Shown here piece after piece: positions 97-47,573 of a stretch of DNA of 64,000 nucleotides. The translations under genes were made by a program, and so were the position numbers. The notes below the pieces were generated by a model. It did no database searches. It was not told the DNA's origin and saw nothing but the letters and a program-made list of their open reading frames with translations. The DNA is from Maylandia zebra. Its lineage: Eukaryota; Chordata; Actinopteri; Cichliformes; Cichlidae. Numbering within the stretch: the first letter of the stretch is position 1; the number at the start of each line of letters is the position of its first letter. The stretch is from the NCBI RefSeq assembly GCF_041146795.1, contig NC_135185.1, forward strand, positions 13,117,529 to 13,181,528, in the 5' to 3' direction.

Positions 97-3000
97 CTGT
101 CCATTGGCTGTCAGCTGTGTCAGGAATTCATCCACATTTTTTAGAACATTGCCCTCTTCAAGTTTTTCAAACACAAGATCAATAAAATCTGTGTTATTTG
201 AGGCTCCAGAGCTCAGTAGCAGCTGTGCCACCTCAGAGGGATTGAGCGTTGACAACAATCCAGCCTACAACAGGGAATCAACATAATATCAGACAACAGT
301 AATGACCAATGCTGTGGGTAAAGGAATAGTGTTTGCAACCAAAGAAAGTGTGCTCTATGATTTGCTTGTATTTTTGATATGGCAAAATAAACTCCTGTGT
401 TTGTCTTCTTAAGTCTACAATTTTGTTTTCCTGTTCTTAAGGGAGGACTAGAAGTGCAATGTAGGGCTTACCGTAGAGATGTTGAAGTCTTTGAGGTCAG
501 AGTATGATGTATATTGGACGAATGGACCCAGATTTGCTTTAACCCATTGGGCATCACTCTCATTTTGTTGCCTGCAAGCTAAGGCATGCAGACAAAAGTT
601 AGGATGTGCTCAATTTAGCAAGGTTTGTGACTGATAGACATGAAAGAATTTAAGTTTTTTGTCTGAGTGCTTTTCAAGACATTTCACACTGGAAAACACA
701 TAACGCACCCTATGTCTGCCCTACCTGGCTCATTGATGGCATTTTCAGCATTTCTTAGGTAGCCCAGCAGACCATGTGTGATCTCTTGCCGTCTGTACAG
801 TGGCATCTCCTGGATAACTATAGCCAACCCACTCACACTGCAACAGTTGAAAGAAAACATTCTCATGCTGTTTTTTGTCACTATTGTCATTTTCATTTGC
901 AACAAAATCTTGATTGCTCCAAGAAAACTACTCACATGACTTGGTAATTCATGCAGCTGATGTTTGTGGTTGTGTTTATGAGCATTTCTGGAGTAAAACT
1001 GGCAAGGATAGGAATCAGTTTCACATGGAACCAAAGTTCATAGTCGTTTGTCGTGAAAGTGGAGAAATGTGGACTGATGACGATGAAGGTCGTATTCATG
1101 ATCCGATCTCTCACAACAGGCTGGAAATGTGGGGTCTGTCATATTAAAGTGGAAAAAGACATAAGCAAAGGTGAGATTGCATGTTGGAAGTACACCCATA
1201 CAACATGGTACAAAGGCTGTAACCATTTGTTTTCTAAGATACAATAGCCAACAATGGATGTAGCGGTTGAGACCGATGTCTTATTCTGTGTTTACTTCTA
1301 GAATCAAATATCCGCATTGTCCTCCTTCACCCTTTTAGGAGGCTAGCCTACCTGTCCATTGGCTGTCAGCTGTGTCAGGAATTCATCCACATTTTTTAGA
1401 GCGTTGCCCTCTTCAAGTTGTTTAAGCACAAGATCAATAAAATCTGTGTTATTTGAGGCTCCAGAGCTCAGTAGCAGCTGTGCCACCTCAGAGGGATTGA
1501 GCGTTGACAACAATCCAGCCTACAACAGGGAATCAACATAATATCAGACAGCAGTAATGACCAATGCTATGGGTAAATGAATAGAGTTTGCAACCAAAGA
1601 AAGTGTGCTCTATGATTTGCTTGTATTTTTGATATGGCAAAATAAACTCCTGTGTTTGTCTTCTTAAGTCTACAATTTTGTTTTCCTGTTCTTAAGGGAG
1701 GACTAGAAGTGCAATGTAGGGCTTACCGTAGAGATGTTGAAGTCTTTGAGGTCAGAGTACGCTGTATATTGGACGAATGGACCCAGATTTGCTTTAACCC
1801 ATTGGGCATCACTCTCATTTTGTTGCCTGCAAGCTAAGGCATGCAGACAAAAGTTAGGATGTGCTCAATTTAGGAAGGTTTGTGACTGGTAGACATGAAA
1901 GAATTTAAGTTTTTTGTCTGAGTGCTTTTCAAGACATTTCACACTGGAAAACACATAATGCACCCTATGTCTGCTCTACCTGGCTCATTGATGGCATTTT
2001 CAGCATTTCTTAGGTAGCCCAGCAGACCATGTGTGATCTCTTGCCGTCTGTACAGTGGCATCTCCTGGATAACTGAAACCAACCCACTCACACTGCAACA
2101 GTTGAAAGAAAACATTCTCATGCTGTTCTTTGTCTCTATTGTCATTTTCATTTGCAACAAAATCTTGATTGCTCCAAGAAAACTACTCACATGACTTGGT
2201 AGTTCATGCAGCTGATGTTTGTGGTTGTGTTTATGAGCATTTCTGGAGTAAAACTGGCAAGGATAGGAATCAGTTTCACATGGAACCAAAGTTCATAGTC
2301 GTTTGTCGTGAAAGTGGAGAAATGTGGACTGATGACGATGAAGGTCGCATTCATGATCCGATCTCTCACAACAGGCTGGAAAATTGGCATCTGTGAAATT
2401 GAGGTGGAAAAGAAGCTAAGCAATACAGAGACTGCATGTTGTAAATGTACTCATACAACATGTCACAAAGGTTGCAAACAAGTCTTCTCTATGATAGACT
2501 CCTTGAAGAGTTGTGTAGCGGTTTAGCAAATGTCTTATTCTGTCTTATCCTGCTGGAATAAAACACCAGGATTGTCCTCCTTCACCCTTTTAGAAGCCTA
2601 GCATACCTGTCCATTGGCTGTCAGTTGTGTGAGGAATCCATCCACATTTTCTAGAGCGTTGCCCTCTTGCAGTCGCTCAAACACACGATCAATCAAATCT
2701 GTGTTATTGGAGGCTCCCAAACTCAGTACCAGCTGTGCCACCTGAGAAGGACTGAGGACTGACAACAATTCAGCCTACAAAAGAGAACCAGCATAATATC
2801 AGACAGCAGTCATGGAAATGTTCTGGGTAAAAGAATTCCGTTTACAGGAAGATGTACATCTGCAGTTGGCACTCACAGCGGACAAATTAGGATTGAAGGC
2901 TTCCAAGTCCTGCACAGTTGCAAAATCAGAGAAGTCGCCAAGGTTTGCCTTTAGCCACGCTTGGCTCCCCGTGATAGATGAGACACAGCCAGGATCTGCA

Positions 3001-3487
3001 GAAAAAGCAAGAAAGTTATTGACAGGGTAATATACCACATGTTGTCATGGAAAAACCAAAGTGAGCTTGAGTTTCTCCTTTTACCTGTTGAGTCATTTCT
3101 TGACAAGAACGGTTTGATGAAGTGAGTGAAGACTGCTTGCTGTGTGTCTCTGTCCATGGATGCCTTTTGGCTTCCAAATGCCTGAATGCTACATTTGAGA
3201 GAAAGCTTTCAACATCTAAACTTCTAGTCAACTGCACATTTGCAGAACAGAGCTATATGTCTCATATTTACTTACACAGTCTGGTATGTCTGGCAGCTGA
3301 AGTTTTTGGAGCTAAGGCAAAATAGGAAGTTGAAAGATGGAACGGCCAGAAACGGACGGATCTTTGTCTTGAACCAGCTGGTAATGAACTCCTCACTCTG
3401 TAGTTGTGCCTGGCTGAAGTTGTCAATTCTCACTTCTCCAAGAGCCTCGAGCACATTTGACGAGGTCGGGTAGGTGTTGTTGACGGC
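97..3487 (-). CDS. Giant gene unit U8, cut by the window edge
   Basis: First twelve exons of the next unit: alpha1 3,276-3,487; beta 3,085-3,188; gamma 2,877-2,995; delta 2,607-2,774; module a 2,191-2,375, 1,980-2,092, 1,727-1,833, 1,352-1,519; module b 936-1,120, 725-837, 472-578, 97-264. All are intact and in phase, 583 codons. The sequence at positions 1-96 is the intron that precedes the next alpha2 exon. The array therefore continues to the left, and neither the number of remaining units nor the C-terminus can be seen. Confidence 0.78.
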
Positions 3488-6400
3488 CTTGAATTGGCAG
3501 AAAAATAATTGTAGCTGGACCCAAACTTCACGCAGGGAAATGGCAATATTGTGAAAATGTGATTTTGTACTTACCATGTTAGCAAATGTCTCAAGGGCCT
3601 GGTCCAGTACAGCAGAGGCTTTTTGGAAGAAAAGCTTCCAGACTTCTACTGGGTATATGTTTTGGCTTTTCAGTGTGCAGTTCAGCAGTGTGACCAAGTT
3701 GCTGGATGTGAGATAGGGAGCCTTGAAAAAGAAAATTGACAAAGAATACAGCCATTTTGTCAGAGCTCATGGAGATTTGTCTCAGGACCATAATGGGCAA
3801 AATCCATGTTCTGTTTTTGGAGTTTAAAAAGGAATCTTACAGAGGAACAGGCATGTTCTGTGATGGTGAAATTGCACAGGGCTGCCGAGGAATTGCCAGC
3901 TGACAGGATTTGCTCAAGTTTTGAACTGTGGAAAAAACACAATAAATTGAAATCCAATGTCCCCTTAATTACACTGTTAACAAATTTTACCTAGACAGAA
4001 TCAACATTGAACAAAACGGCATTTCACCCACCCATCAACTCCATTACAAATGAGATTCACTGTGAAAAGAGAATGGTTGTGTGTCAGATAATAGTCCTTC
4101 AGAATGCATTTATATCCTTAGAGTTGAAATGTGTACTTCTAGACAGACTTACCATGAACTGGGGTCACCTTGCACTGAAGACAAAGAGAATATGAGTGTT
4201 AGTATAGTGGAAACATCTTCTTCAAGTGTAAATACCTTGACTTTGTCACAGTTGGCCCAATTAGTGTGCCAAACCTGGATCAAATATTGGATAACCCATG
4301 TAAGACACCCCCCACACCCACCCACCCACCCCCCAAAAAACTAATCTTACCACAAAGGAAGCTGGAACTGAGCAGCCTGTTTGAGAAGAAAAAGAAAGGA
4401 AACAAATCAATGGAGTAGTCATTACAGTGCTGGTACTGGGCTTTTGGGAAAAGTTTAGTCAGGAAAGCCCATTTGCCACATACGTGGGAATGTGTCCTGG
4501 AGGTACTGCTTGCTTGATCTCACGCCCTGTGAAAGGTCCAGTGGCAATGCTGCCAAACTCTGCGCAAGACCATCGTATCTAAAGGAAGAAAAGAATTCAT
4601 TGTGACTTGTCAGGAGCCTCAGCTTGGCATTGTGCACACCCAAATGTCTAACTGTGGATATCAGAAATATCTTACACAGCCTGGTAGGATTCACAGGTGA
4701 TGTTACTGGGGATCACCCGCAAGCTGCTAGGAAGGATGCTCGCCATCACAGGAACCAAATAAACCTGGAACCACTGTTGATAGTCTTCTGGCTGAAAGTC
4801 TTTAAGCTGAGGAGCAAGGGCTGTCAAGGTCAGGCTCAAAATGGTGTCTCGCACATCTGGATTTTGGATGAGGGTGACATTTCTCTGAAAAGAGAAGGGG
4901 ATCATAATAAGGTCAGAGAGGAAGTTCTGAAGTCTTTGTGGAAATGCGGAGATGAGGGGGAGCTTATCTAAACTAAATCTTTGTACTTCTGTACAGCAGG
5001 GATGCCTCAAGGCATGAAGCATATCAGAAATGGATCATTTTCAGTTAAACACTTGAGCAGGTTTATGAAAGAACACTGTTAACATTTGTTGATGTTTGCG
5101 CTGAGGTAAGGTTACCAATGAGAATTCACCTGCTTGTTGATGTTTGCAAAAGCCTGGAAGAATTGGTTGAGCTGCTCATAATCACTGGTCTCTGTCAAGC
5201 TTGTCAACACCTCCCTTACAACATGTGCATCGTTTAAAGCACCACTGTTTGGATCTAGGATTAGATCAGCCTTTTGCGATGGTGAAAGAACGTCCAGAAC
5301 TGCCAGCTATGGATACAAAAAAGTAGAATTCATGAAATGCATGTCTTTTGTATAATTTCCAGAATTTTGCTTTGCTATTCTCAAGAAAGACAGGAAGAGT
5401 AATAAGAGTAAAGCTTACCGTAGAGATGTTGAAGTCTTTGAGGTCAGAGTATGATGTATATTGGACGAATGGACCCAGATTTGCTTTAACCCATTGGGCA
5501 TCACTCTCATTTTGTTGCCTGCAAGCTAAGGCATACAAACAAAAGTTAGGATGTGCCAAATTTAGGAAGGTTTTTGACAGGTAGACATGAAAGAATATGT
5601 GGGCAAGTTTTTTGTCTGAGTGCTTTTCAAGACATTTCACACTGGAAAGCACATAACGCACCCTATGTCTGCCCTACCTGGCTCATTGATGGCATTTTCA
5701 GCATTTCTTAGGTAGCCCAGCAGACCATGTGTGATCTCTTGCCGTCTGTACAGTGGCATCTCCTGGATAACTGAAGCCAACCCACTCACACTGCAACAGT
5801 TGAAAGAAAACGTTCTCATGCTGTTCTTTGTCAGTATTGTCATTTTCATTTGCAACAAAATCTTGATTGCTCCAAGAAAACCACTCACATGACTTGGTAA
5901 TTCATGCAGCTGATGTTTGTGGTTGTGTTTATGAGCATTTCTGGAGTAAAACTGGCAAGGATAGGAATCAGTTTCACATGGAACCAAAGTTCATAGTCGT
6001 TTGTCGTGAAAGTGGAGAAATGTGGACTGATGATGATGAAGGTCGTATTCATGATCCGATCTCTCACAACAGGCTGGAAATGTGGGGTCTGTCATATTAA
6101 AGTGGAAAAAGACATAAGCAAAGGTGAGATTGCATGTTGGAAGTACACCCATACAACATGGTACAAAAGCTGTAACCATTTGTTTTCTAAGATACAATAG
6201 CCAACAATGGATGTAGCGGTTGAGACCTATGTTTTATTCTGTGTTTACTTCTGGAATCAAATATCTGCATTGTCCTCCTTCACCCTTTTAGGAGGCTAGC
6301 CTACCTGTCCATTGGCTGTCAGCTGTGTCAGGAATTCATCCACATTTTTTAGAACATTGCCCTCTTCAAGTTTTTCAAACACAAGATCAATAAAATCTGT

Positions 6401-9400
6401 GTTATTTGAGGCTCCAGAGCTCAGTAGCAGCTGTGCCACCTCAGAGGGATTGAGCGTTGACAACAATCCAGCCTACAACAGGGAATCAACATAATATCAG
6501 ACAACAGTAATGACCAATGCTGTGGGTAAAGGATTAGTGTTTGCAACCAAAGAAAGTGTGCTCTATGATTTGCTTGTATTTTTGATATGGCAAAATAAAC
6601 TCCTGTGTTTGTCTTCTTAAGTCTACAATTTTGTTTTCCTGTTCTTAAGGGAGGACTAGAAGTGCAATGTAGGGCTTACCGTAGAGATGTTGAAGTCTTT
6701 GAGGTCAGAGTATGATGTATATTGCACGAATGGACCCAGATTTGCTTTAACCCATTGGGCATCACTCTCATTTTGTTGCCTGCAAGCTAAGGCATACAAA
6801 CAAAAGTTAGGATGTGCCAAATTTAGGAAGGTTTTTGACAGGTAGACATGAAAGAATTTGTGGGCAAGTTTTTTGTCTGAGTGCTTTTCAAGACATTTCA
6901 CACTGGAAAACACATAACGCACCCTATGTCTGCCCTACCTGGCTCATTGATGGCATTTTCAGCATTTCTTAGGTAGCCCAGCAGACCATGTGTGATCTCT
7001 TGCCGTCTGTACAGTGGCATCTCCTGGATAACTATAGCCAACCCACTCACACTGCAACAGTTGAAAGAAAACATTCTCATGCTGTTTTTTGTCACTATTG
7101 TCATTTTCATTTGCAACAAAATCTTGATTGCTCCAAGAAAACTACTCACATGACTTGGTAATTCATGCAGCTGATGTTTGTGGTTGTGTTTATGAGCATT
7201 TCTGGAGTAAAACTGGCAAGGATAGGAATCAGTTTCACATGGAACCAAAGTTCATAGTCGTTTGTCGTGAAAGTGGAGAAATGTGGACTGATGACGATGA
7301 AGGTCGTATTCATGATCCGATCTCTCACAACAGGCTGGAAATGTGGGGTCTGTCATATTAAAGTGGAAAAAGACATAAGCAAAGGTGAGATTGCATGTTG
7401 GAAGTACACCCATACAACATGGTACAAAGGCTGTAACCATTTGTTTTCTAAGATACAATAGCCAACAATGGATGTAGCGGTTGAGACCGATGTCTTATTC
7501 TGTGTTTACTTCTAGAATCAAATATCCGCATTGTCCTCCTTCACCCTTTTAGGAGGCTAGCCTACCTGTCCATTGGCTGTCAGCTGTGTCAGGAATTCAT
7601 CCACATTTTTTAGAGCGTTGCCCTCTTCAAGTTGTTTAAGCACAAGATCAATAAAATCTGTGTTATTTGAGGCTCCAGAGCTCAGTAGCAGCTGTGCCAC
7701 CTCAGAGGGATTGAGCGTTGACAACAATCCAGCCTACAACAGGGAATCAACATAATATCAGACAGCAGTAATGACCAATGCTATGGGTAAATGAATAGAG
7801 TTTGCAACCAAAGAAAGTGTGCTCTATGATTTGCTTGTATTTTTGATATGGCAAAATAAACTCCTGTGTTTGTCTTCTTAAGTCTACAATTTTGTTTTCC
7901 TGTTCTTAAGGGAGGACTAGAAGTGCAATGTAGGGCTTACCGTAGAGATGTTGAAGTCTTTGAGGTCAGAGTACGCTGTATATTGGACGAATGGACCCAG
8001 ATTTGCTTTAACCCATTGGGCATCACTCTCATTTTGTTGCCTGCAAGCTAAGGCATGCAGACAAAAGTTAGGATGTGCTCAATTTAGGAAGGTTTGTGAC
8101 TGGTAGACATGAAAGAATTTAAGTTTTTTGTCTGAGTGCTTTTCAAGACATTTCACACTGGAAAACACATAATGCACCCTATGTCTGCTCTACCTGGCTC
8201 ATTGATGGCATTTTCAGCATTTCTTAGGTAGCCCAGCAGACCATGTGTGATCTCTTGCCGTCTGTACAGTGGCATCTCCTGGATAACTGAAACCAACCCA
8301 CTCACACTGCAACAGTTGAAAGAAAACATTCTCATGCTGTTCTTTGTCTCTATTGTCATTTTCATTTGCAACAAAATCTTGATTGCTCCAAGAAAACTAC
8401 TCACATGACTTGGTAGTTCATGCAGCTGATGTTTGTGATTGTGTTTATGAGCATTTCTGGAGTAAAACTGGCAAGGATAGGAATCAGTTTCACATGGAAC
8501 CAAAGTTCATAGTCGTTTGTCGTGAAAGTGGAGAAATGTGGACTGATGACGATGAAGGTCGCATTCATGATCCGATCTCTCACAACAGGCTGGAAAATTG
8601 GCATCTGTGAAATTGAGGTGGAAAAGAAGCTAAGCAATACAGAGACTGCATGTTGTAAATGTACTCATACAACATGTCACAAAGGTTGCAAACAAGTCTT
8701 CTCTATGATAGACTCCTTGAAGAGTTGTGTAGCGGTTTAGCAAATGTCTTATTCTGTCTTATCCTGCTGGAATAAAACACCAGGATTGTCCTCCTTCACC
8801 CTTTTAGAAGCCTAGCATACCTGTCCATTGGCTGTCAGTTGTGTGAGGAATCCATCCACATTTTCTAGAGCGTTGCCCTCTTGCAGTCGCTCAAACACAC
8901 GATCAATCAAATCTGTGTTATTGGAGGCTCCCAAACTCAGTACCAGCTGTGCCACCTGAGAAGGACTGAGGACTGACAACAATTCAGCCTACAAAAGAGA
9001 ACCAGCATAATATCAGACAGCAGTCATGGAAATGTTCTGGGTAAAAGAATTCCGTTTACAGGAAGATGTACATCTGCAGTTGGCACTCACAGCGGACAAA
9101 TTAGGATTGAAGGCTTCCAAGTCCTGCACAGTTGCAAAATCAGAGAAGTCGCCAAGGTTTGCCTTTAGCCACGCTTGGCTCCCCGTGATAGATGAGACAC
9201 AGCCAGGATCTGCAGAAAAAGCAAGAAAGTTATTGACAGGGTAATATACCACATGTTGTCATGGAAAAACCAAAGTGAGCTTGAGTTTCTCCTTTTACCT
9301 GTTGAGTCATTTCTTGACAAGAACGGTTTGATGAAGTGAGTGAAGACTGCTTGCTGTGTGTCTCTGTCCATGGATGCCTTTTGGCTTCCAAATGCCTGAA

Positions 9401-36400: not shown

Positions 36401-39400
36401 AATTCATGAAATGCATGTCTTTTGTATAATTTCCAGAATTTTGCTTTGCTATTCTCAAGAAAGACAGGAAGAGTAATAAGAGTAAAGCTTACCGTAGAGA
36501 TGTTGAAGTCTTTGAGGTCAGAGTATGATGTATATTGGACGAATGGACCCAGATTTGCTTTAACCCATTGGGCATCACTCTCATTTTGTTGCCTGCAAGC
36601 TAAGGCATACAAACAAAAGTTAGGATGTGCCAAATTTAGGAAGGTTTTTGACAGGTAGACATGAAAGAATATGTGGGCAAGTTTTTTGTCTGAGTGCTTT
36701 TCAAGACATTTCACACTGGAAAGCACATAACGCACCCTATGTCTGCCCTACCTGGCTCATTGATGGCATTTTCAGCATTTCTTAGGTAGCCCAGCAGACC
36801 ATGTGTGATCTCTTGCCGTCTGTACAGTGGCATCTCCTGGATAACTGAAGCCAACCCACTCACACTGCAACAGTTGAAAGAAAACATTCTCATGCTTTTC
36901 TTTGTCAGTATTGTCATTTTCATTTGCAACAAAATCTTGATTGCTCCAAGAAAACTACTCACATGACTTGGTAATTCATGCAGCTGATGTTTGTGGTTGT
37001 GTTTATGAGCATTTCTGGAGTAAAACTGGCAAGGATAGGAATCAGTTTCACATGGAACCAAAGTTCATAGTCGTTTGTCGTGAAAGTGGAGAAATGTGGA
37101 CTGATGATGATGAAGGTCATATTCATGATCCGATCTCTCACAACAGGCTGGAAATGTGGGCTCTGTCATATTAAAGTGGAAAAAGACATAAGCAAAGGTG
37201 AGATTGCATGTTGGAAGTACACCCATACAACATGGTACAAAAGCTGTAACCATTTGTTTTCTAAGATACAATAGCCAACAATGGATGTAGCGGTTGAGAC
37301 CTATGTTTTATTCTGTGTTTACTTCTGGAATCAAATATCTGCATTGTCCTCCTTCACCCTTTTAGGAGGCTAGCCTACCTGTCCATTGGCTGTCAGCTGT
37401 GTCAGGAATTCATCGACATTTTTTAGAACATTGCCCTCTTCAAGTTTTTCAAACACAAGATCAATAAAATCTGTGTTATTTGAGGCTCCAGAGCTCAGTA
37501 GCAGCTGTGCCACCTCAGAGGGATTGAGCGTTGACAACAATCCAGCCTACAACAGGGAATCAACATAATATTAGACAACAGTAATGACCAATGCTGTGGG
37601 TAAAGGATTAGCGTTTGCAACCAAAGAAAGTGTGCTCTATGATTTGCTTGTATTTTTGATATGGCAAAATAAACTCCTGTGTTTGTCTTCTTAAGTCTAC
37701 AATTTTGTTTTCCTGTTCTTAAGGGAGGACTAGAAGTGCAATGTAGGGCTTACCGTAGAGATGTTGAAGTCTTTGAGGTCAGAGTATGATGTATATTGGA
37801 CGAATGGACCCAGATTTGCTTTAACCCATTGGGCATCACTCTCATTTTGTTGCCTGCAAGCTAAGGCATACAAACAAAAGTTAGGATGTGCCAAATTTAG
37901 GAAGGTTTTTGACAGGTAGACATGAAAGAATTTGTGGGCAAGTTTTTTGTCTGAGTGCTTTTCAAGACATTTCACACTGGAAAACACATAACGCACCCTA
38001 TGTCTGCCCTACCTGGCTCATTGATGGCATTTTCAGCATTTCTTAGGTAGCCCAGCAGACCATGTGTGATCTCTTGCCGTCTGTACAGTGGCATCTCCTG
38101 GATAACTGAAGCCAACCCACTCACACTGCAACAGTTGAAAGAAAACATTCTCATGCTGTTTTTTGTCACTATTGTCATTTTCATTTGCAACAAAATCTTG
38201 ATTGCTCCAAGAAAACTACTCACATGACTTGGTAATTCATGCAGCTGATGTTTGTGGTTGTGTTTATGAGCATTTCTGGAGTAAAACTGGCAAGGATAGG
38301 AATCAGTTTCACATGGAACCAAAGTTCATAGTCGTTTGTCGTGAAAGTGGAGAAATGTGCACTGATGACGATGAAGGTCGTATTCATGATCCGATCTCTC
38401 ACAACAGGCTGGAAATGTGGGGTCTGTCATATTAAAGTGGAAAAAGACATAAGCAAAGGTGAGATTGCATGTTGGAAGTACACCCATACAACATGGTACA
38501 AAGGCTGTAACCATTTGTTTTCTAAGATACAATAGCCAACAATGGATGTAGCGGTTGAGACCGATGTCTTATTCTGTGTTTACTTCTAGAATCAAATATC
38601 CGCATTGTCCTCCTTCACCCTTTTAAGAGGCTAGCCTACCTGTCCATTGGCTGTCAGCTGTGTCAGGAATTCATCCACATTTTTTAGAGCGTTGCCCTCT
38701 TCAAGTTGTTTAAACACAAGATCAATAAAATCTGTGTTATTTGAGGCTCCAGAGCTCAGTAGCAGCTGTGCCACCTCAGAGGGATTGAGCGTTGACAACA
38801 ATCCAGCCTACAACAGGGAATCAACATAATATCAGACAGCAGTAATGACCAATGCTGTGGGTAAATGAATAGAGTTTGCAACCAAAGAAAGTGTGCTCTA
38901 TGATTTGCTTGTATTTTTGATATGGCAAAATAAACTCCTGTGTTTGTCTTCTTAAGTCTACAATTTTGTTTTCCTGTTCTTAAGGGAGGACTAGAAGTGC
39001 AATGTAGGGCTTACCGTAGAGATGTTGAAGTCTTTGAGGTCAGAGTACGCTGTATATTGGACGAATGGACCCAGATTTGCTTTAACCCATTGGGCATCAC
39101 TCTCATTTTGTTGCCTGCAAGCTAAGGCATGCAGACAAAAGTTAGGATGTGCTCAATTTAGCAAGGTTTGTGACTGGTAGACATGAAAGAATTTAAGTTT
39201 TTTGTCTGAGTGCTTTTCAAGACATTTCACACTGGAAAACACATAATGCACCCTATGTCTGCCCTACCTGGCTCATTGATGGCATTTTCAGCATTTCTTA
39301 GGTAGCCCAGCAGACCATGTGTGATCTCTTGCCGTCTGTACAGTGGCATCTCCTGGATAACTGAAACCAACCCACTCACACTGCAACAGTTGAAAGAAAA

Positions 39401-42400
39401 CATTCTCATGCTGTTCTTTGTCTCTATTGTCATTTTCATTTGCAACAAAATCTTGATTGCTCCAAGAAAACTACTCACATGACTTGGTAGTTCATGCAGC
39501 TGATGTTTGTGATTGTGTTTATGAGCATTTCTGGAGTAAAACTGGCAAGGATAGGAATCAGTTTCACATGGAACCAAAGTTCATAGTCGTTTGTCGTGAA
39601 AGTGGAGAAATGTGGACTGATGACGATGAAGGTCGCATTCATGATCCGATCTCTCACAACAGGCTGGAAAATTGGCATCTGTGAAATTGAGGTGGAAAAG
39701 AAGCTAAGCAATACAGAGACTGCATGTTGTAAATGTACTCATACAACATGTCACAAAGGTTGCAAACAAGTCTTCTCTATGATAGACTCCTTGAAGAGTT
39801 GTGTAGCGGTTTAGCAAATGTCTTATTCTGTCTTATCCTGCTGGAATAAAACACCAGGATTGTCCTCCTTCACCCTTTTAGAAGCCTAGCATACCTGTCC
39901 ATTGGCTGTCAGTTGTGTGAGGAATCCATCCACATTTTCTAGAGCGTTGCCCTCTTGCAGTCGCTCAAACACACGATCAATCAAATCTGTGTTATTGGAG
40001 GCTCCCAAACTCAGTACCAGCTGTGCCACCTGAGAAGGACTGAGGACTGACAACAATCCAGCCTACAAAAGAGAACCAGCATAATATCAGACAGCAGTCA
40101 TGGAAATGTTCTGGGTAAAAGAATTCCGTTTACAGGAAGATGTACATCTGCAGTTGGCACTCACAGCGGACAAATTAGGATTGAAGGCTTCCAAGTCCTG
40201 CACAGTTGCAAAATCAGAGAAGTCGCCAAGGTTTGCCTTTAGCCACGCTTGGCTCCCCGTGATAGATGAGACACAGCCAGGATCTGCAGAAAAAGCAAGA
40301 AAGTTATTGACAGGGTAATATACCACATGTTGTCATGGAAAAACCAAAGTGAGCTTGAGTTTCTCCTTTTACCTGTTGAGTCATTTCTTGACAAGAACGG
40401 TTTGATGAAGTGAGTGAAGACTGCTTGCTGTGTGTCTCTGTCCATGGATGCCTTTTGGCTTCCAAATGCCTGAATGCTACATTTGAGAGAAAGCTTTCAA
40501 CATCTAAACTTCTAGTCAACTGCACATTTGCAGAACAGAGCTATATGTCTCATATTTACTTACACAGTCTGGTATGTCTGGCAGCTGAAGTTTTTGGAGC
40601 TAAGGCAAAATAGGAAGTTGAAAGATGGAACGGCCAGAAACGGACGGATCTTTGTCTTGAACCAGCTGGTAATGAACTCCTCACTCTGTAGTTGTGCCTG
40701 GCTGAAGTTGTCAATTCTCACTTCTCCAAGAGCCTCGAGCACATTTGACGAGGTCGGGTAGGTGTTGTTGACGGCCTTGAATTGGCAGAAAAATAATTGT
40801 AGCTGGACCCAAACTTCACGCAGGGAAATGGCAATATTGTGAAAATGTGATTTTGTACTTACCATGTTAGCAAATGTCTCAAGGGCCTGGTCCAGTACAG
40901 CAGAGGCTTTTTGGAAGAAAAGCTTCCAGACTTCTACTGGGTATATGTTTTGGCTTTTCAGTGTGCAGTTCAGCAGTGTGACCAAGTTGCTGGATGTGAG
41001 ATAGGGAGCCTTGAAAAAGAAAATTGACAAAGAATACAGCCATTTTGTCAGAGCTCATGGAGATTTGTCTCAGGACCATAATGGGGCAAAATCCATGTTC
41101 TGTTTTTGAAGTTTAAAAAGGAATCTTACAGAGGAACAGGCATGTTCTGTGATGGTGAAATTGCACAGGGCTGCCGAGGAATTGCCAGCTGACAGGATTT
41201 GCTCAAGTTTTGAACTGTGGAAAAAACACAATAAATTGAAATCCAATGTCCCCTTAATTACACTGTGTTAACAAATTTTACCTAGACAGAATCAACATTG
41301 AACAAAACGGCATTTCACCCACCCATCAACTCCATTACAAATGAGATTCACTGTGAAAAGAGAATGGTTGTGTGTCAGATAATAGTCCTTCAGAATGCAT
41401 TTATATCCTTAGAGTTGAAATGTGTACTTCTAGACAGACTTACCATGAACTGGGGTCACCTTGCACTGAAGACAAAGAGAATATGAGTGTTAGTATAGTG
41501 GAAACATCTTCTTCAAGTGTAAATACCTTGACTTTGTCACAGTTGGCCCAATTAGTGTGCCAAACCTGGATCAAATATTGGATAACCCATGTAAGACACC
41601 CACCCCCCCCCACACCCACCCACCCACCCCCCAAAAAACTAATCTTACCACAAAGGAAGCTGGAACTGAGCAGCCTGTTTGAGAAGAAAAAGAAAGGAAA
41701 CAAATCAATGGAGTAGTCATTACAGTGCTGGTACTGGGCTTTTGGGAAAAGTTTAGTCAGGAAAGCCCATTTGCCACATACGTGGGAATGTGTCCTGGAG
41801 GTACTGCTTGCTTGATCTCACGCCCTGTGAAAGGTCCAGTGGCAATGCTGCCAAACTCTGCGCAAGACCATCGTATCTAAAGGAAGAAAAGAATTCATTG
41901 TGACTTGTCAGGAGCCTCAGCTTGGCATTGTGCACACCCAAATGTCTAACTGTGGATATCAGAAATATCTTACACAGCCTGGTAGGATTCACAGGTGATG
42001 TTACTGGGGATCACCCGCAAGCTGCTAGGAAGGATGCTCGCCATCACAGGAACCAAATAAACCTGGAACCACTGTTGATAGTCTTCTGGCTGAAAGTCTT
42101 TAAGCTGAGGAGCAAGGGCTGTCAAGGTCAGGCTCAAAATGGTGTCTCGCACATCTGGATTTTGGATGAGGGTGACATTTCTCTGAAAAGAGAAGGGGAT
42201 CATAATAAGGTCAGAGAGGAAGTTCTGAAGTCTTTGTGGAAATGTGGAGATGAGGGGGAGCTTATCTAAACTAAATCTTTGTACTTCTGTACAGCAGGGA
42301 TGCCTCAAGGCATGAAGCATATCAGAAATGGATCATTTTCAGTTAAACACTTGAGCAGGTTTATGAAAGAACACTGTTAACCTTTGTTGATGTTTGCGCT

Positions 42401-45400
42401 GAGGTAAGGTTACCAATGAGAATTCACCTGCTTGTTGATGTTTGCAAAAGCCTGGAAGAATTGGTTGAGCTGCTCATAATCACTGGTCTCTGTCAAGCTT
42501 GTCAACACCTCCCTTACAACATGTGCATCGTTTAAAGCACCACTGTTTGGATCAAGGATTAGATCAGCCTTTTGCGATGGTGAAAGAACGTCCAGAACTG
42601 CCAGCTATGGATACAAAAAAGTAGAATTCATGAAATGCATGTCTTTTGTATAATTTCCAGAATTTTGCTTTGCTATTCTCAAGAAAGACAGGAAGAGTAA
42701 TAAGAGTAAAGCTTACCGTAGAGATGTTGAAGTCTTTGAGGTCAGAGTATGATGTATATTGGACGAATGGACCCAGATTTGCTTTAACCCATTGGGCATC
42801 ACTCTCATTTTGTTGCCTGCAAGCTAAGGCATGCAGACAAAAGTTAGGATGTGCTCAATTTAGCAAGGTTTGTGACTGGTAGACATGAAAGAATTTAAGT
42901 TTTTTGTCTGAGTGCTTTTCAAGACATTTCACACTGGAAAGCACATAACGCACCCTATGTCTGCCCTACCTGGCTCATTGATGGCATTTTCAGCATTTCT
43001 TAGGTAGCCCAGCAGACCATGTGTGATCTCTTGCCGTCTGTACAGTGGCATCCCCTGGATAACTAAAGCCAACCCACTCACACTGCAACAGTTGAAAGAA
43101 AACATTCTCATGCTGTTCTTTGTCACTATTGTCATTTTCATTTGCAACAAAATCTTGATTGCTCCAAGAAAACTACTCACATGACTTGGTAGTTTGTGCA
43201 GCTGATGTTTGTGGTTGTGTTTATGAGCATTTCTGGAGTAAAACTGGCAAGGATAGGAATCAGTTTCACATGGAACCAAAGTTCATAGTCGTTTGTCGTG
43301 AAAGTGGAGAAATGTGGACTGATGACGATGAAGGTCGTATTCATGATCCGATCTCTCACAACAGGCTGGAAATGTGGGGTCTGTCATATTAAAGTGGAAA
43401 AAGACATAAGCAAAGGTGAGATTGCATGTTGGAAGTACACCCATACAACATGGTACAAAGGCTGTAACCATTTGTTTTCTAAGATACAATAGCCAACAAT
43501 GGATGTAGCGGTTGAGACCGATGTTTTATTCTGTGTTTACTTCTGGAATCAAATATCCACATTGTCCTCCTTCACCCTTTTAGGAGGCTAGCCTACCTGT
43601 CCATTGGCTGTCAGCTGTGTCAGGAATTCATCCACATTTTTTAGAGCATTGCCCTCTTCAAGTTTTTCAAACACAAGATCAATAAAATCTGTGTTATTGG
43701 AGGCTCCAGAGCTCAGTAGCAGCTGTGCCACCTCAGAGGGATTGAGCGTTGACAACAATCCAGCCTACAACAGGGAATCAACATAATATCAGACAGCAGT
43801 AATGACCAATGCTGTGGGTAAATGAATAGAGTTTGCAACCAAAGAAAGTGTGCTCTATGATTTTCTTGTATTTTTGATATGGCAAAATAAACTCCTGTGT
43901 TTGTTTTCTTAAGTCTACAATTTTGTTTTCCTGTTCTTAAGGGAGGACTAGAAGTGCAATGTAGGGCTTACCGTAGAGATGTTGAAGTCTTTGAGGTCAG
44001 AGTATGATGTATATTGGACGAATGGACCCAGATTTGCTTTAACCCATTGGGCATCACTCTCATTTTGTTGCCTGCAAGCTAAGGCATACAAACAAAAGTT
44101 AGGATGTGCTCAATTTAGCAAGGTTTGTGACTGGTAGACATGAAAGAATTTAAGTTTTTTGTCTGAGTGCTTTTCAAGACATTTCACACTGGAAAGCACA
44201 TAACGCACCCTATGTCTGCCCTACCTGGCTCATTGATGGCATTTTCAGCATTTCTTAGATAGCCCAGCAGACCATGTGTGATCTCTTGCCGTCTGTACAG
44301 TGGCATCTCCTGGATAACTAAAGCCAACCCACTCACACTGCAACAGTTGAAAGAAAACGTTCTCATGCTGTTCTTTGTCAGTATTGTCATTTTCATTTGC
44401 AACAAAATGTTGATTGCTCCAAGAAAACTACTCACATGACTTGGTAGTTCGTGCAGCTGATGTTTGTGGTTGTGTTTATGAGCATTTCTGGAGTAAAACT
44501 GGCAAGGATAGGAATCAGTTTCACATGGAACCAAAGTTCATAGTCGTTTGTCGTGAAAGTGGAGAAATGTGGACTGATGATAATGAAGGTCGTATTCATG
44601 ATCCGATCTCTCACAACAGGCTGGAAAATTGTCATCTGTGAAATTGAAGTGGAAAAGAAGCTAAGCAATACAGATACTGCATGTTGTAAATGTACTCATA
44701 CAACATGGTAAATGGTAAATGGCCTGTATTTATATAGCGCTTTACTAGTCCCTAAGAACCTCAAAGCGCTTTACATATCCAGTCATCCACCCATTCACGC
44801 ACACATTCACACACTGGTGATGGTAAGCTACATTGTAGCCACAGCCACTCTGGGGCGCACTGACAGATGGTACAAACGCTGCAAGCAATTCTTTTCTATG
44901 ATAGACTCCTTGAAGAGTTGTGTAGCGGTTTAGCAAATGTCTTATTCTGTCTTATCCTGCTGGAATAAAACACCAGGATTGTCCTCCTTCACCCTTTTAG
45001 AAGCCTAGCATACCTGTCCATTGGCTGTCAGTTGTGTGAGGAATCCATCCACATTTTTTAGAGCTTTGCCCTCTTGCAGTCGCTCAAACACACGATCAAT
45101 CAAATCTGTGTTATTGGAGGCTCCCAAACTCAGTACCAGCTGTGCCACCTGAGAAGGACTGAGGACTGACAACAATTCAGCCTACAAAAGAGAACCAGCA
45201 TAATATCAGACAGCAGTCATGGAAATGTTCTGGGTAAAAGAATTCCGTTTACAGGAAGATGTACATCTGCAGTTGGCACTCACAGCGGACAAATTAGGAT
45301 TGAAGGCTTCCAAGTCCTGCACAGTTGCAAAATCAGAGAAGTCGCCAAGGTTTGCCTTTAGCCACGCTTGGCTCCCCGTGATAGATGAGACACAGCCAGG

Positions 45401-47573
45401 ATCTGCAGAAAAAGCAAGAAAGTTATTGACAGGGTAATATACCACATGTTGTCATGGAAAAACCAAAGTGAGCTTGAGTTTCTCCTTTTACCTGTTGAGT
45501 CATTTCTTGACAAGAACGGTTTGATGAAGTGAGTGAAGACTGCTTGCTGTGTGTCTCTGTTCATGGATGCCTTTTGCCTTCCAAATGCCTGAATGCTACA
45601 TTTGAGAGAAAGCTTTCAATAAATAACATATTCAAAATTCAACATAATTCAACATAATTCAATCACAACCATTTCAAACTTAAATCCCATTGATATTTTA
45701 AAACATTGTAATCAACGAATTGGTACATTTTGTCACAACCTCTTCTACACAGAATAAGACCTATATTTCTTTCGTTTATTCATCCACATTTTCATTTCCT
45801 TTCATAATTTGATCATTTCATATGGTATTCTAATATGGGATAGTGAACTCTTTTAACCTCAGTCTTTTCATGTCTGGAAAAGTTTCCAACCGCGTTTTAC
45901 ATCGTGGGTAGCAATTTTCAGTTGAAATTCTCCTTTTGACTTATTTTCAATTACATAATTTCTGAATCATTATATAACATTCTTATTTTAAAGAAACACC
46001 TTCACAAACGACCACCTTATATTAAGGTGTATGCCTCTTTTACAACAGCTGGGTCACACAGTCATAACTTGTTTGGTCTGACTTGTAATTTAACAATTAT
46101 GTGATACGCATTTTTCTTTCTTCCTTTTTTTAGTGATTTCAGTGGACTTTGGGACCCTGACATCAACATTCAATGCAATACACAGTGAGAAATGTGTTAC
46201 ATGTTAGAATATTCAATTAAAATTGTTTATGTCTTTAATGATTTCCATAAGCAGTTAACAGCAGTCACCAGCAATAATTGGTAAAATGGAATTTATTCAC
46301 TTACATCTCTTGGAAAGAGGTGCAGCTGAAGTTCCACTTGCTGAGCTGGTTTAGGAAGTTTCCATTGACATAAGGCAAAAGAGGAATCATCTTCACAGAG
46401 AACCACAGCCTGATGAATTCGGGGTCACTGTCATTACCCAAACGAAGGCTGTCCAGGACTCCAAATACATCCAGAACATCAAATCCAGGGACATTGTTGT
46501 TCTGTTACAAGACAAATTTGCCATTTACCATTCTTAAAAGCTGTTACATGTTTTACACCTACACTATACTGAAGTAAAGCATTAGCTCATTTACCAGGTC
46601 AAAGAACACTTGTAAAGTCGACTCTACAATCTGCCTGAGATTTTGTTCCACCATCCTCGACTTTTCATCTGTTAAGCTTGCATTTTTACCCCTTTTACAG
46701 GATAACTCGCCTGTCAGTTTGTCCACTGCAGCAGAGCTCTAAGAACACATAGAGCAGGTGAAAGCACTGGGTTACTGTCAGTAACTTAGCACAAGGGGGA
46801 GTCATTTATCAACAATGCTTTGTGGGGACATTTAACAATTTAAGGTTTAACGATGAATTTATCATTTTTTACTCAAATTAATTCCAAAAGGCTTACTCTT
46901 TGAGTGGCATCTTGTAGATTTGCTGCATGGCAAGTTTCCTGGAAACCGTTGGTATGAGTGGTGGCTTTGCTTAAATAAGAAAAAACACGGTAACAGAAAT
47001 TAATAATAAAGTCATCTTTAACTAAAATAACATCCCTGGAATGTATTAGGTCTACAAACTGTTATTTGAGTTTGCATGCCTACCTGTTTTCAGATAAACC
47101 TGGTCCTATAAAATGCAAAAAAGAAAATGAATGAACACATGTATTAACATTTTCAAATTAATAATTAATGGAACATGGATAAGAATTATGTTAATGGATT
47201 AACTTTTAAAAGAAGAAAAAGGTGACATTTTATTTTATATTCATATAAAATTGCATATGGTTTATATGTATAAAAAAACTTACCTTGTGTTGTGTTGGAC
47301 TGTAATGTAAATTTATAAAAGAACATGTTAATTCATGTATTTCATTGTATTTCATTGTTTTTGATTTAATTATTTAATCTTGAAAAAAAAAACACTTACA
47401 GTTGCAGAGACCAGTCCTGACATACATACTATAGATTTTTTTTTTTATAAAAAAGAAAAGTGTTAGATAAGGATATATATTCTATTAAATGACTAATTGA
47501 ATGTTCAGAGATACTTACCAATGCCAATAGATGACAGTAGCAGAACTTGCACTGACATTCTTATGCCACCCAT
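97..47573 (-). CDS. Giant secreted repeat protein gene, 3' end outside window
   Basis: One minus-strand gene covers this span. It opens with a signal peptide (ATG at 47,573) and continues through six small N-terminal exons, seven complete 24-exon units and half of an eighth. Coding length in the window is about 7,458 codons: 113 N-terminal, 798 in U1, 6 x 994 in U2-U7 and 583 in U8. All exons have GT donors and AG acceptors, and phases match throughout: alpha 0 to 2, beta 2 to 1, gamma 1 to 0, delta 0 to 0. The modules are helical-looking, with NxS/NxT sites and a conserved NxSC-x-x-YQ end on alpha exons. I see no membrane segment or stop here, so the C-terminal anchor is unknown. Secretion and glycosylation are inferred. 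The family is not recognised; a likeness to mesothelin/stereocilin superhelices is only an impression. A run of separate genes is less likely because no internal promoter or signal-peptide exon is seen. Confidence 0.8.
3575..9701 (-). CDS. Giant gene unit U7 (reference unit for the exon model)
   Basis: Complete unit used to define the exons. alpha1 9,490-9,701 (ends NFSCQTYQTV); beta 9,299-9,402; gamma 9,091-9,209; delta 8,821-8,988; module a 8,405-8,589, 8,194-8,306, 7,941-8,047, 7,566-7,733; module b 7,150-7,334, 6,939-7,051, 6,680-6,786, 6,305-6,472; module c 5,889-6,073, 5,678-5,790, 5,419-5,525, delta' 5,130-5,306; alpha3 4,676-4,884 (ends NITCESYQAV); beta' 4,484-4,578; linker 4,351-4,376, 4,236-4,274, 4,153-4,174, 4,032-4,059, 3,841-3,925, 3,575-3,721. 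Exon lengths are 212, 104, 119, 168; three times 185, 113, 107, 168 (last delta 177); 209, 95, 26, 39, 22, 28, 85, 147. They total 2,982 bases, or 994 codons. The 28-base linker exon uses a GG|gtgggt donor, chosen because only this length joins its neighbours in frame. Confidence 0.8.
4307..4334 (-). repeat. G-rich intronic tract on the sense strand, once per unit
   Basis: A run of C-blocks on the plus strand, so G-blocks (six, three, three, three, six) in the pre-mRNA, sits in the short intron between the first two linker exons. It recurs at about 10,524-10,551, 16,731-16,758, 22,948-22,975, 29,165-29,192, 35,381-35,408 and, expanded, 41,599-41,632. Four or more G-runs with one-base loops fit the usual G-quadruplex pattern. 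Any role in splicing or recombination is a guess. Confidence 0.75.
9789..15911 (-). CDS. Giant gene unit U6
   Basis: Complete unit, 994 codons. Exons: alpha1 15,700-15,911; beta 15,509-15,612; gamma 15,301-15,419; delta 15,031-15,198; module a 14,615-14,799, 14,404-14,516, 14,151-14,257, 13,776-13,943; module b 13,360-13,544, 13,149-13,261, 12,897-13,003, 12,522-12,689; module c 12,106-12,290, 11,895-12,007, 11,636-11,742, delta' 11,347-11,523; alpha3 10,893-11,101; beta' 10,701-10,795; linker 10,568-10,593, 10,453-10,491, 10,370-10,391, 10,249-10,276, 10,056-10,140, 9,789-9,935. A short intron deletion abuts the module b gamma exon at 13,004-13,010. The acceptor AG survives and the reading frame is unaffected. 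Its linker variants match U4. Confidence 0.78.
15999..22125 (-). CDS. Giant gene unit U5
   Basis: Complete unit, 994 codons. Exons: alpha1 21,914-22,125; beta 21,723-21,826; gamma 21,515-21,633; delta 21,245-21,412; module a 20,829-21,013, 20,618-20,730, 20,365-20,471, 19,990-20,157; module b 19,574-19,758, 19,363-19,475, 19,104-19,210, 18,729-18,896; module c 18,313-18,497, 18,102-18,214, 17,843-17,949, delta' 17,554-17,730; alpha3 17,100-17,308; beta' 16,908-17,002; linker 16,775-16,800, 16,660-16,698, 16,577-16,598, 16,456-16,483, 16,265-16,349, 15,999-16,145. Two small length variants in the linker introns (near 16,218 and 16,399) are shared with U7 but not with U6, which lies between them. 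This points to a two-unit, 12.4 kb duplication. Confidence 0.78.
22213..28342 (-). CDS. Giant gene unit U4
   Basis: Complete unit, 994 codons. Exons: alpha1 28,131-28,342; beta 27,940-28,043; gamma 27,732-27,850; delta 27,462-27,629; module a 27,046-27,230, 26,835-26,947, 26,582-26,688, 26,207-26,374; module b 25,791-25,975, 25,580-25,692, 25,321-25,427, 24,946-25,113; module c 24,530-24,714, 24,319-24,431, 24,060-24,166, delta' 23,771-23,947; alpha3 23,317-23,525; beta' 23,125-23,219; linker 22,992-23,017, 22,877-22,915, 22,794-22,815, 22,673-22,700, 22,480-22,564, 22,213-22,359. Its module a gamma exon carries the 'tatgat' form found in modules b and c, where other units have 'tacgct', so a patch seems to have moved between modules. 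Linker intron variants match U6 rather than U5. Confidence 0.78.
28430..34559 (-). CDS. Giant gene unit U3
   Basis: Complete unit, 994 codons. Exons: alpha1 34,348-34,559; beta 34,157-34,260; gamma 33,949-34,067; delta 33,679-33,846; module a 33,263-33,447, 33,052-33,164, 32,799-32,905, 32,424-32,591; module b 32,008-32,192, 31,797-31,909, 31,538-31,644, 31,163-31,330; module c 30,747-30,931, 30,536-30,648, 30,277-30,383, delta' 29,988-30,164; alpha3 29,534-29,742; beta' 29,342-29,436; linker 29,209-29,234, 29,094-29,132, 29,011-29,032, 28,890-28,917, 28,697-28,781, 28,430-28,576. Module a shares variants with U4 (near 33,396 and 33,515), while module b shares variants with U2. A single unit is thus a patchwork of its two neighbours, as unequal exchange or conversion would produce. 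Confidence 0.78.
34647..40775 (-). CDS. Giant gene unit U2
   Basis: Complete 24-exon unit, 994 codons. Exons in gene order: alpha1 40,564-40,775; beta 40,373-40,476; gamma 40,165-40,283; delta 39,895-40,062; module a 39,479-39,663, 39,268-39,380, 39,015-39,121, 38,640-38,807; module b 38,224-38,408, 38,013-38,125, 37,754-37,860, 37,379-37,546; module c 36,963-37,147, 36,752-36,864, 36,493-36,599, delta' 36,204-36,380; alpha3 35,750-35,958; beta' 35,558-35,652; linker 35,425-35,450, 35,310-35,348, 35,227-35,248, 35,106-35,133, 34,913-34,997, 34,647-34,793. It shares with U3 a base change in the module b alpha exon (Pro to Ala in ISPHFS) and another in the module b delta exon, so U2 and U3 are close relatives there. 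Module c has its own change in the intron between alpha2 and beta (near 36,897). Confidence 0.78.
40863..46501 (-). CDS. Giant gene unit U1 (23% shorter at protein level than later units are alike; one central module fewer)
   Basis: First repeat unit, 798 codons instead of 994 because it has two central modules where later units have three. Exons in gene order: alpha1 46,305-46,501; beta 45,492-45,595; gamma 45,284-45,402; delta 45,014-45,181; alpha2 44,436-44,620; beta 44,225-44,337; gamma 43,972-44,078; delta 43,597-43,764; alpha2 43,181-43,365; beta 42,970-43,082; gamma 42,717-42,823; delta' 42,428-42,604; alpha3 41,974-42,182; beta' 41,782-41,876; linker 41,649-41,674, 41,527-41,565, 41,444-41,465, 41,323-41,350, 41,130-41,214 and 40,863-41,009. 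Its alpha1 is clearly diverged (ends NFSCTSFQEM, 197 bases against 212). The 700-base intron after alpha1 has no match in the array. A fish dispersed repeat sits in the delta-alpha2 intron. U1 is therefore the least homogenised unit. Confidence 0.75.
44711..44866 (+). repeat. Dispersed fish repeat ('tatatagcgc' type) in a U1 intron
   Basis: An insertion with the motifs 'tttatatagcgcttt', 'caaagcgctttac' and 'tggggcgcactgacag' interrupts the intron between delta and alpha2 of U1. A six-base repeat (atggta) stands at each side, at 44,705-44,710 and 44,867-44,872. The other units have the uninterrupted intron. A relative lies at 63,341-63,530. The family is a common non-autonomous teleost repeat; its class is not certain from sequence alone. 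Confidence 0.7.
45611..46304 (-). other. AT-rich intron between U1 alpha1 and beta, unique
   Basis: About 700 bases of AT-rich sequence with no similarity to the array and no exon-like open frame. Left of 45,615 it merges with array intron sequence. A short direct repeat (attcaacata) occurs near 45,636-45,660. It is the largest intron seen in this gene. Confidence 0.6.
46595..47573 (-). CDS. N-terminal exons of the giant gene: signal peptide and leader
   Basis: Six coding exons in gene order: 47,519-47,573, 47,400-47,428, 47,284-47,299, 47,084-47,105, 46,897-46,969 and 46,595-46,738. Exons 1 and 2 together code for a signal peptide: a short N-terminus with one Arg (MGGIRMS), a core rich in V, L, I and S, and a likely cleavage site near VSA-T. 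Two micro-exons of 16 and 22 bases follow. Phases run 0-1, 1-0, 0-1, 1-2, 2-0, 0-0 without a break. The fifth and sixth exons match in size class, phase and pattern the last two linker exons found in every downstream unit (85 and 147 bases). The array unit therefore seems to contain a copy of this leader without its signal peptide. The acceptor of the 29-base exon has a poor pyrimidine tract, which is the weakest point of the model. Confidence 0.7.

Follow-up and report, generated by a model that had tools for sequence, protein, structure and literature searches.

A giant gene on C19

The analysed window is a 64,000-nucleotide stretch of the Maylandia zebra genome (C19:13117529-13181528, contig NC_135185.1; the genome searched comprises 962 Mb in 63 contigs), in which the first ~45.6 kb show strong self-repetition at main spacings of 6207-6224 bp and secondary spacings near 1255-1261 bp and 4956 bp. 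The exons of the first repeat unit were traced on the minus strand via splice anchors picked by eye and then used as queries for the other copies. The resulting gene (gene 1) has a single start at 47573 and is composed of the following features, given in window positions except for the last.

47519..47573, minus strand: exon 1 (e1), with the start codon and a signal-peptide-like start (MGGIRMSVQVLLLSSIGI..., recognised by eye); copies of e1-e7 also head both sister genes on C19
46305..47428, minus strand: exons e2-e7, rest of the signal peptide and N-terminal cap region; AG/GT splice sites, continuous phases, copies in the sister genes
40564..45595, minus strand: unit 1, 19 exons, 800 codons, four modules (A, B, D, E)
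34348..40476, minus strand: unit 2, the first standard unit, 23 exons, 996 codons; modules A 40476-39479, B 39380-38224, B 38125-36963, D 36864-35750, E 35652-34348
28131..34260, minus strand: unit 3, 23 exons
21914..28043, minus strand: unit 4, 23 exons
15700..21826, minus strand: unit 5, 23 exons
9490..15612, minus strand: unit 6, 23 exons, with an intronic 7-bp deletion immediately upstream of exon 13003-12897
3276..9402, minus strand: unit 7, 23 exons
97..3188, minus strand: unit 8, whose first 11 exons (of 23) are inside the window and the others left of it
C19:13110279-13094663, minus strand: mesothelin-like 3' end, traced as exons X1-X26

Together, the 5' exons e1-e7 (47573-46305) and 168 repeat exons reaching down to position 97, all of the latter with an AG acceptor and a GT donor, bring the part of gene 1 inside the window to 175 exons and 7,477 codons, in line with an earlier note on this DNA that had predicted more than 7,400 residues behind one signal peptide. 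That note had described seven complete units plus a partial one, each of 24 exons and 994 codons. The repeat unit itself and the partial copy (the 11 exons of unit 8) stand, whereas the counts do not: complete 23-exon units number six (units 2 to 7), the seventh being the shorter unit 1, and the standard unit has 996 codons. Left of the window come the rest of unit 8, 14 exons of an incomplete unit 9 and then the 3' end, so that the stop lies outside the window, as had been supposed.

No stop codon interrupts the joined 5' part and array (201 exons, 8,613 codons), which excludes a chance open frame and bears out the earlier description of the repeats as intact and phase-compatible within and across units. 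Furthermore, the refined exon table contains no exon of deviating length. A candidate broken exon at 12996 (12996-12897, 7 nt short) was rejected because the deletion is intronic, a TAG acceptor stays in place and the 107-nt exon 13003-12897 is intact.

A Tc1-like transposase lies at 54568-55603 (minus strand) in two overlapping open frames, with a DDE_3 match above the cut-off and an HTH_38 match just under it (26.4 versus 27 bits), and an open frame at 49229-49606 (plus strand) has a THAP match slightly under the curated cut-off (21.8 versus 23.9 bits). Sequence resembling the latter frame, as judged by eye, recurs near C19:13109000, behind the array. An Rfam search of the right flank gave no matches.

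Organisation of units and modules

The standard unit comprises 23 exons with 2988 nt (996 codons) over 6121-6130 bp, to which an 87-bp border intron is added, while the opening unit in each of three genes (gene 1 and two sister genes) has 19 exons, 800 codons and four modules rather than five. These modules, of about 200 residues and usually encoded by four exons with phases 2-1-0-0, had been overlooked in the earlier reading. The standard unit reads A, B, B, D, E, and the array is thus a higher-order repeat in which ~200-residue modules are nested in five-module units. By exon count gene 1 contains 9 A, 17 B, 8 D and 8 E modules, and modules C and F precede the MPF part, giving about 44 modules in all.

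Identity in the aligned parts of the modules amounts to 70% for A/B, 57% for B/D and 33% for A/D. The E module, the middle of which is broken into short exons of 26, 22 and 28 nt (41323-41674 and copies) that are unchanged in length in the exon tables of all three genes, was counted as a module by its length, its outer exon phases and a last exon with a few invariant positions common to the others. Its sequence appears only weakly tied to the other modules, the match to A or B covering only ~33 residues (E about 0.04) and the comparison with the module profile giving a probability of 27.

Database searches with the 5' part and unit 1 yielded four Pfam rows, all under their cut-offs (979 residues, E up to 10; best E=0.0061), and a single chance-level row among solved structures (E=0.33). 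Comparison of the modules with the mesothelin domain (hhalign) detected no similarity (probability 0.5, score 17.3, with 1 of 30 column shuffles scoring higher at 17.8), and none of the N-terminal, E, F and G pieces gave a significant hhalign match to mesothelin. Homology of the array modules to the mesothelin domain, not being detectable by sequence, was set aside.

The mesothelin-like 3' end

The full model of gene 1 spans 70,439 bp and contains 227 exons with 29,724 coding nucleotides including the stop, encoding 9,907 residues with one terminal stop. The 26 3' exons were hand-picked, by eye, for their agreement with splice sites and phase, and their AG acceptors (26/26), GT donors (25/25) and phases, continuous until the stop, therefore demonstrate consistency and are no independent test. 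In addition to these rules, 16 of the 26 exons have a match in a relative on contig C6 (weak for X1, E=0.011, and X19, E=0.18), and X8 gained one in a separate search; the remaining nine are placed by splice sites, phase and, mostly, position inside a single Pfam stretch. A search with pieces of the C6 relative located homologous exons at C19:13103306-13094852, behind gene 1. X1 and X2 are separated by 6,790 bp of sequence that is transposon-like by eye, and the phases agree across this gap (0 to 0). A gene end immediately after X1, where a short hydrophobic tail and a stop were seen by eye, was considered and dropped once the mesothelin exons were found to lie in phase.

Judged by its sequence, the C-terminus of gene 1 is mesothelin. 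The C-terminal 1,295 residues match Pfam PF06060 with 264.4 bits (cut-off 25.8; E=2.4e-78) in one stretch covering profile positions 33-580 of 624, and a search of solved structures with an 855-residue part returned five distinct sequences (up to E=10), all five of them mesothelin (E=6e-38 to 1.9e-16). The earlier statement that no described family with this layout is known is not supported. In the genome as a whole (9 of 9 candidates scored), four PF06060 matches were listed, all above the cut-off, two of them on C6 and two in the 3' end of gene 1; among the control genomes, 0 of 14 gave a match.

The conserved disulfide pairs of mesothelin are described as C302/C326 and C442/C468 (PMC10035497). 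Three of these four cysteines fall in the aligned part, each opposite a cysteine of gene 1, the residue numbering having been mapped by our own reading; for the first, gene 1 has a cysteine at a similar distance, outside the aligned part. Directly before the mesothelin part stands RTTKR, with KR present in the C6 relative too, which is short of the full furin consensus, R-X-K/R-R. The protein ends in a hydrophobic tail (MMLGALLTAVLQMLLQPA) followed by the stop, which by eye is GPI-signal-like, and a Ser/Thr-rich stretch, also noted by eye, lies between this tail and the mesothelin domain. Within this stalk the last exon (C19:13095142-13094663) contains a short in-frame minisatellite of GSNSTTTAP repeats. 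The whole protein has 266 N-glycosylation sequons and 157 cysteines and a mass of ~1,100 kDa before glycans. Given the mesothelin end, GPI anchoring is predicted unless the protein is cleaved. Of the 'giant secreted protein' proposed earlier, one giant product destined for the secretory pathway is supported.

Sister genes on C19 and relatives on C6

Genome searches with four pieces of gene 1 (best candidates scored) led to C19, to places on C6 and to one weak row with a stop on C5 (E=5.2); the C6 rows from one of these searches are by themselves weak (E=2.3). On C19, two sister genes lie on the same chromosome as gene 1 at a distance of 4 Mb.

Near C19:17087 to 17122 kb, plus strand: sister gene 2, with its own e1-e7; 129 exons, 5,485 codons
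Near C19:17178 to 17208 kb, plus strand: sister gene 3, with its own e1-e7; 110 exons, 4,685 codons

In both sister genes e2 is 6 nt shorter than in gene 1, with the frame kept, and in both the protein ends in ...LAKRGC, the stop falling inside a shortened D-module exon. A search of C19:17060001-17220000 revealed no mesothelin exons behind them. Their predicted proteins look freely secreted. Genes 2 and 3 share 99.35% identity across 31 kb, the 1.4 kb upstream of the gene 1 start codon match the sister genes at 94-96%, and more upstream blocks, to ~16 kb, match at 89-97% (two short rows at 79%), some of them between or away from genes 2 and 3. From this mutual identity and the matching upstream blocks, genes 2 and 3 seem to be segmental duplicates, copied either from the gene 1 5' part or from a shared source. 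At C19:17126140-17126430, downstream of gene 2 by a few kb, there is an exon-like frame which by eye we take to resemble the ligand-binding portion of class C receptors.

The C6 relatives are considerably more diverged. Compared with the 5' part and unit 1, the C6 stretch shows 21 to 49% identity (best E=4e-13), and its order is that of gene 1: modules, an X1-like exon, the exons that follow and, last, a mesothelin end that has both a Ser/Thr-rich stretch and a hydrophobic tail. The X1-like exon directly precedes the X2 homologue; this order is clear, although the sequence match of X1 is weak (E=0.011; 2.3). The C6 end protein, joined by eye, matches Pfam Mesothelin (E=3.4e-34) and mesothelin chains (E=1.6e-17), and the mesothelin exons of gene 1 and the C6 relative share 35-56% identity. 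The C6 module stretch matched neither Pfam families nor solved structures, and the C6 MPF-like piece matched no Pfam family and one chance-level chain among solved structures (E=0.035). The region C6:13872-13923 kb holds a cluster of diverged array-gene relatives with mesothelin ends, which was read outside 13889001-13902000 and up to 13922000. The two C6 mesothelin-end matches lie ~16 kb apart, suggesting a putative tandem duplication; one C6 match, at 13922.9 kb, is on the opposite strand.

Homogenisation and selection

Fourteen standard 23-exon units from the three genes were compared in 91 pairs. In the unit tree, a branch of length 0.024 with support 1.000 sets the gene 1 units apart from those of genes 2 and 3, which are intermixed. 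In a second tree, built from 73 A, B and D modules with neither E nor the N-terminal cap included, A and D make up one clade each, both divided into gene 1 versus genes 2 and 3; the B modules of genes 2 and 3 form one group, while those of gene 1 form a second-position and a third-position group, with the B module of its first unit standing apart and the A clade branching among the gene 1 B modules. The repeat copies are homogenised by locus, as is characteristic of concerted evolution, and the clustering of units by locus upholds what the earlier note had proposed about their uniformity. The gene 1 units are 99.7-99.8% identical. Its seven 23-exon units differ pairwise by 0-10 nt of 2985, and u6 and u7 have identical coding sequences.

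Exon indels are absent from all 91 unit pairs, in every group. Introns carry on average 1.71, 2.00 and 1.00 indels per pair within genes 1, 2 and 3, respectively, 8.29 between gene 1 and either gene 2 or gene 3, and 1.42 between genes 2 and 3, and this difference indicates constraint on the reading frame. In comparisons of gene 1 with genes 2/3, substitutions affect 2.26% of exon positions and 3.03-3.13% of intron positions (3.13% for gene 2).

Amino-acid replacement follows a different course. Pairwise dN/dS is 0.73 for gene 1 versus 2, 0.85 versus 3 and 0.56 for gene 2 versus 3, with values of 0.76, 0.48 and 1.66 within the genes, where changes are few. Consensus units, which omit unit-private changes, differ between genes 1 and 2 by 48 nonsynonymous changes on 2310 sites and 14 synonymous ones on 675, and between genes 1 and 3 by 52 and 15, giving in both cases a ratio of 1.0 (Fisher p = 1). 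In a simulation that placed the same base changes of the gene 1 versus 2 comparison at random, 42.2 nonsynonymous changes, 18.1 synonymous changes and 1.7 stops were expected, and 16.6% of runs had zero stops, so that this sample bears no sign of protein-level constraint. Coding changes as frequent as silent ones, which the earlier note had named as one half of an outcome speaking against its proposal, are thus found between the consensus of gene 1 and those of genes 2/3, yet the frame is kept in every one of the pairs. In the N-terminal exons e5-e7, gene 1 and its sisters are separated by 5-6 nonsynonymous and 2 synonymous changes. Among older exon pairs, four have dN/dS of 0.57, 0.19, 0.33 and 0.59, and four others are saturated. 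Our reading of these data is that the modules would have been under long-term constraint, that recent amino-acid change may have been fast or relaxed, and that the frame has apparently been intact throughout.

Interpretation of the locus

Gene 1 is very probably a mesothelin-family gene whose N-terminal region has grown into a higher-order array of ~44 modules, in units of five, between the signal peptide and the mesothelin precursor, and whose product is likely to be a long glycosylated rod. The gene model, array, mesothelin end and sister genes on which this assignment rests can be read from the DNA itself. The array might instead be non-functional, a decaying or neutral tandem duplication in a mesothelin-like gene with frames that are open because the copies are young and homogenised, and the consensus dN/dS of about 1, the small number of differences among the gene 1 units, and the sister genes, which end in a shortened module with no mesothelin exons found behind them, would all suit such an origin. 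We consider it unlikely, however, since indels are frequent in introns (1.0-8.3 per pair) and absent from exons, exons have diverged less than introns between gene 1 and genes 2/3, no premature stop occurs in models of 9,907, 5,485 and 4,685 codons, the four unsaturated older exon pairs have dN/dS of 0.19-0.59, and mesothelin exons only 35-56% identical to those of the C6 relative have stayed open in gene 1.

A division into two genes, one ending soon after the array and a separate mesothelin gene lying behind an insert, draws on the transposon-like 6,790 bp that part X1 from X2, on the stop soon met when reading beyond X1, and on the sister genes, which terminate where their arrays do. It is nonetheless improbable, as the phase continues from 0 to 0 across the gap and an X1-like exon directly precedes the X2 homologue in the C6 relative, albeit with a weak sequence match. 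The tandem arrangement and near-identity of the units could also reflect separate genes with a transcript each, but there is practically no chance of this: the border introns between units are 87 bp in 17 of 17 cases in the three genes, with splice sites in phase, and leave no room for separate promoters and 3' ends, and each array has one set of e1-e7. One gene per unit was rejected on these introns. Finally, an assembly artefact, with the copy number inflated or collapsed by the assembler, would be in keeping with the 99.7-99.8% identity of the gene 1 units and the coding identity of u6 and u7. It is very improbable, because the other units have distinguishing substitutions and intron indels and the architecture is common to three loci with different copy numbers, although the exact copy number may be wrong.

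For the array-bearing mesothelin gene thus preferred, we infer expression, processing, anchoring, glycosylation, rod shape and ligand as follows. The array probably grew by repeated unequal exchange. The predicted C-terminal order is an MPF-like part, a dibasic KR site, the mesothelin domain, a Ser/Thr-rich stalk and a GPI-signal-like tail, and the array would form a long, heavily N-glycosylated extracellular rod shown at the cell surface. Were the KR site (RTTKR) cleaved like that of the mammalian precursor, the array would be set free as MPF is, and soluble proteins of a similar kind would come straight from the sister genes. The rod might bind mucin-type or matrix glycoproteins multivalently. 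This proposal extends what has been described for mesothelin, a GPI-anchored product of a furin-cut precursor whose helices form a right-handed spiral (PMC10035497) and which has CA-125 as its binding partner (PMC10035497, PMC2628672), and the suggestion that the mesothelin superfamily are superhelical lectins (PMC2628672). Carried further, a megadalton mesothelin would be a length-adjustable, multivalent glycan- or mucin-binding rod, its copy number shifting by unequal exchange and the rod matching the tandem-repeat mucins bound by mesothelins, with gene 1 providing a surface-held form and the sisters soluble ones, and with fast change at an intact frame marking an arms race in mucosal or reproductive fluid; we offer this extension as a speculation that is possible but rather doubtful. 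Mesothelin-like proteins are listed in proteome tables of shark semen and quail seminal fluid, as far as the accessible parts of those sources go, a faint hint at fluids in which such proteins occur.

Mesothelin is a cell-surface protein, a tumour marker in people and a much-used tumour target. Its normal role was called little known in 2009 (PMC2628672), and a family member with ~44 modules would be a natural experiment on what may precede a mesothelin precursor. The locus also illustrates cleanly how concerted evolution can affect entire multi-exon units within one gene and, with other copy numbers, in two sister genes. In the open-access literature searched, as far as its texts were available, no report of a fish mesothelin array was found, and an unnamed annotation may exist among predicted fish proteins. 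The family is already known, and what appears to be new is a mesothelin gene that stands out by its size, its nested array and its concerted evolution.

Comparison with known systems

The last ~870 residues of gene 1 resemble the mesothelin precursor in their profile and crystal-chain matches, aligned cysteines, MPF-mesothelin order with a basic site between, and GPI-signal-like tail. In contrast, the human precursor is given as 68 kDa (PMC10035497), compared with ~1,100 kDa before glycans for gene 1, a size that results from the module array. Stereocilin and otoancorin are, like gene 1, extracellular members of the mesothelin superfamily, likened here by description. We know of no tandem high-identity array in either of them. 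For both, glycoproteins of the tectorial membrane, which is an acellular gel, have been suggested as binding partners (PMC2628672).

A long extracellular tandem array under concerted evolution, which in gene 1 is seen in the grouping of units by locus, is a likeness shared with VERL and the spidroins. VERL, of the abalone egg coat, is a long tandem array kept uniform by concerted evolution. A zona pellucida domain is the mark of VERL-like egg coat proteins, and no zona pellucida family was found by Pfam in the 5' part and unit 1 (E up to 10) or in the C-terminal 1,295 residues (E up to 0.1). Spidroins likewise are described as long tandem extracellular arrays kept uniform by concerted evolution (PMC2704960, PMC3933166). 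Unlike the repeats of VERL and spidroins, those of gene 1 are multi-exon with conserved introns. MUC16/CA125 is also of giant size, with a domain type that differs from that of gene 1. Like the predicted gene 1 product it is a giant tandem-repeat glycoprotein, and it has been described as the partner of mesothelin (PMC2628672).
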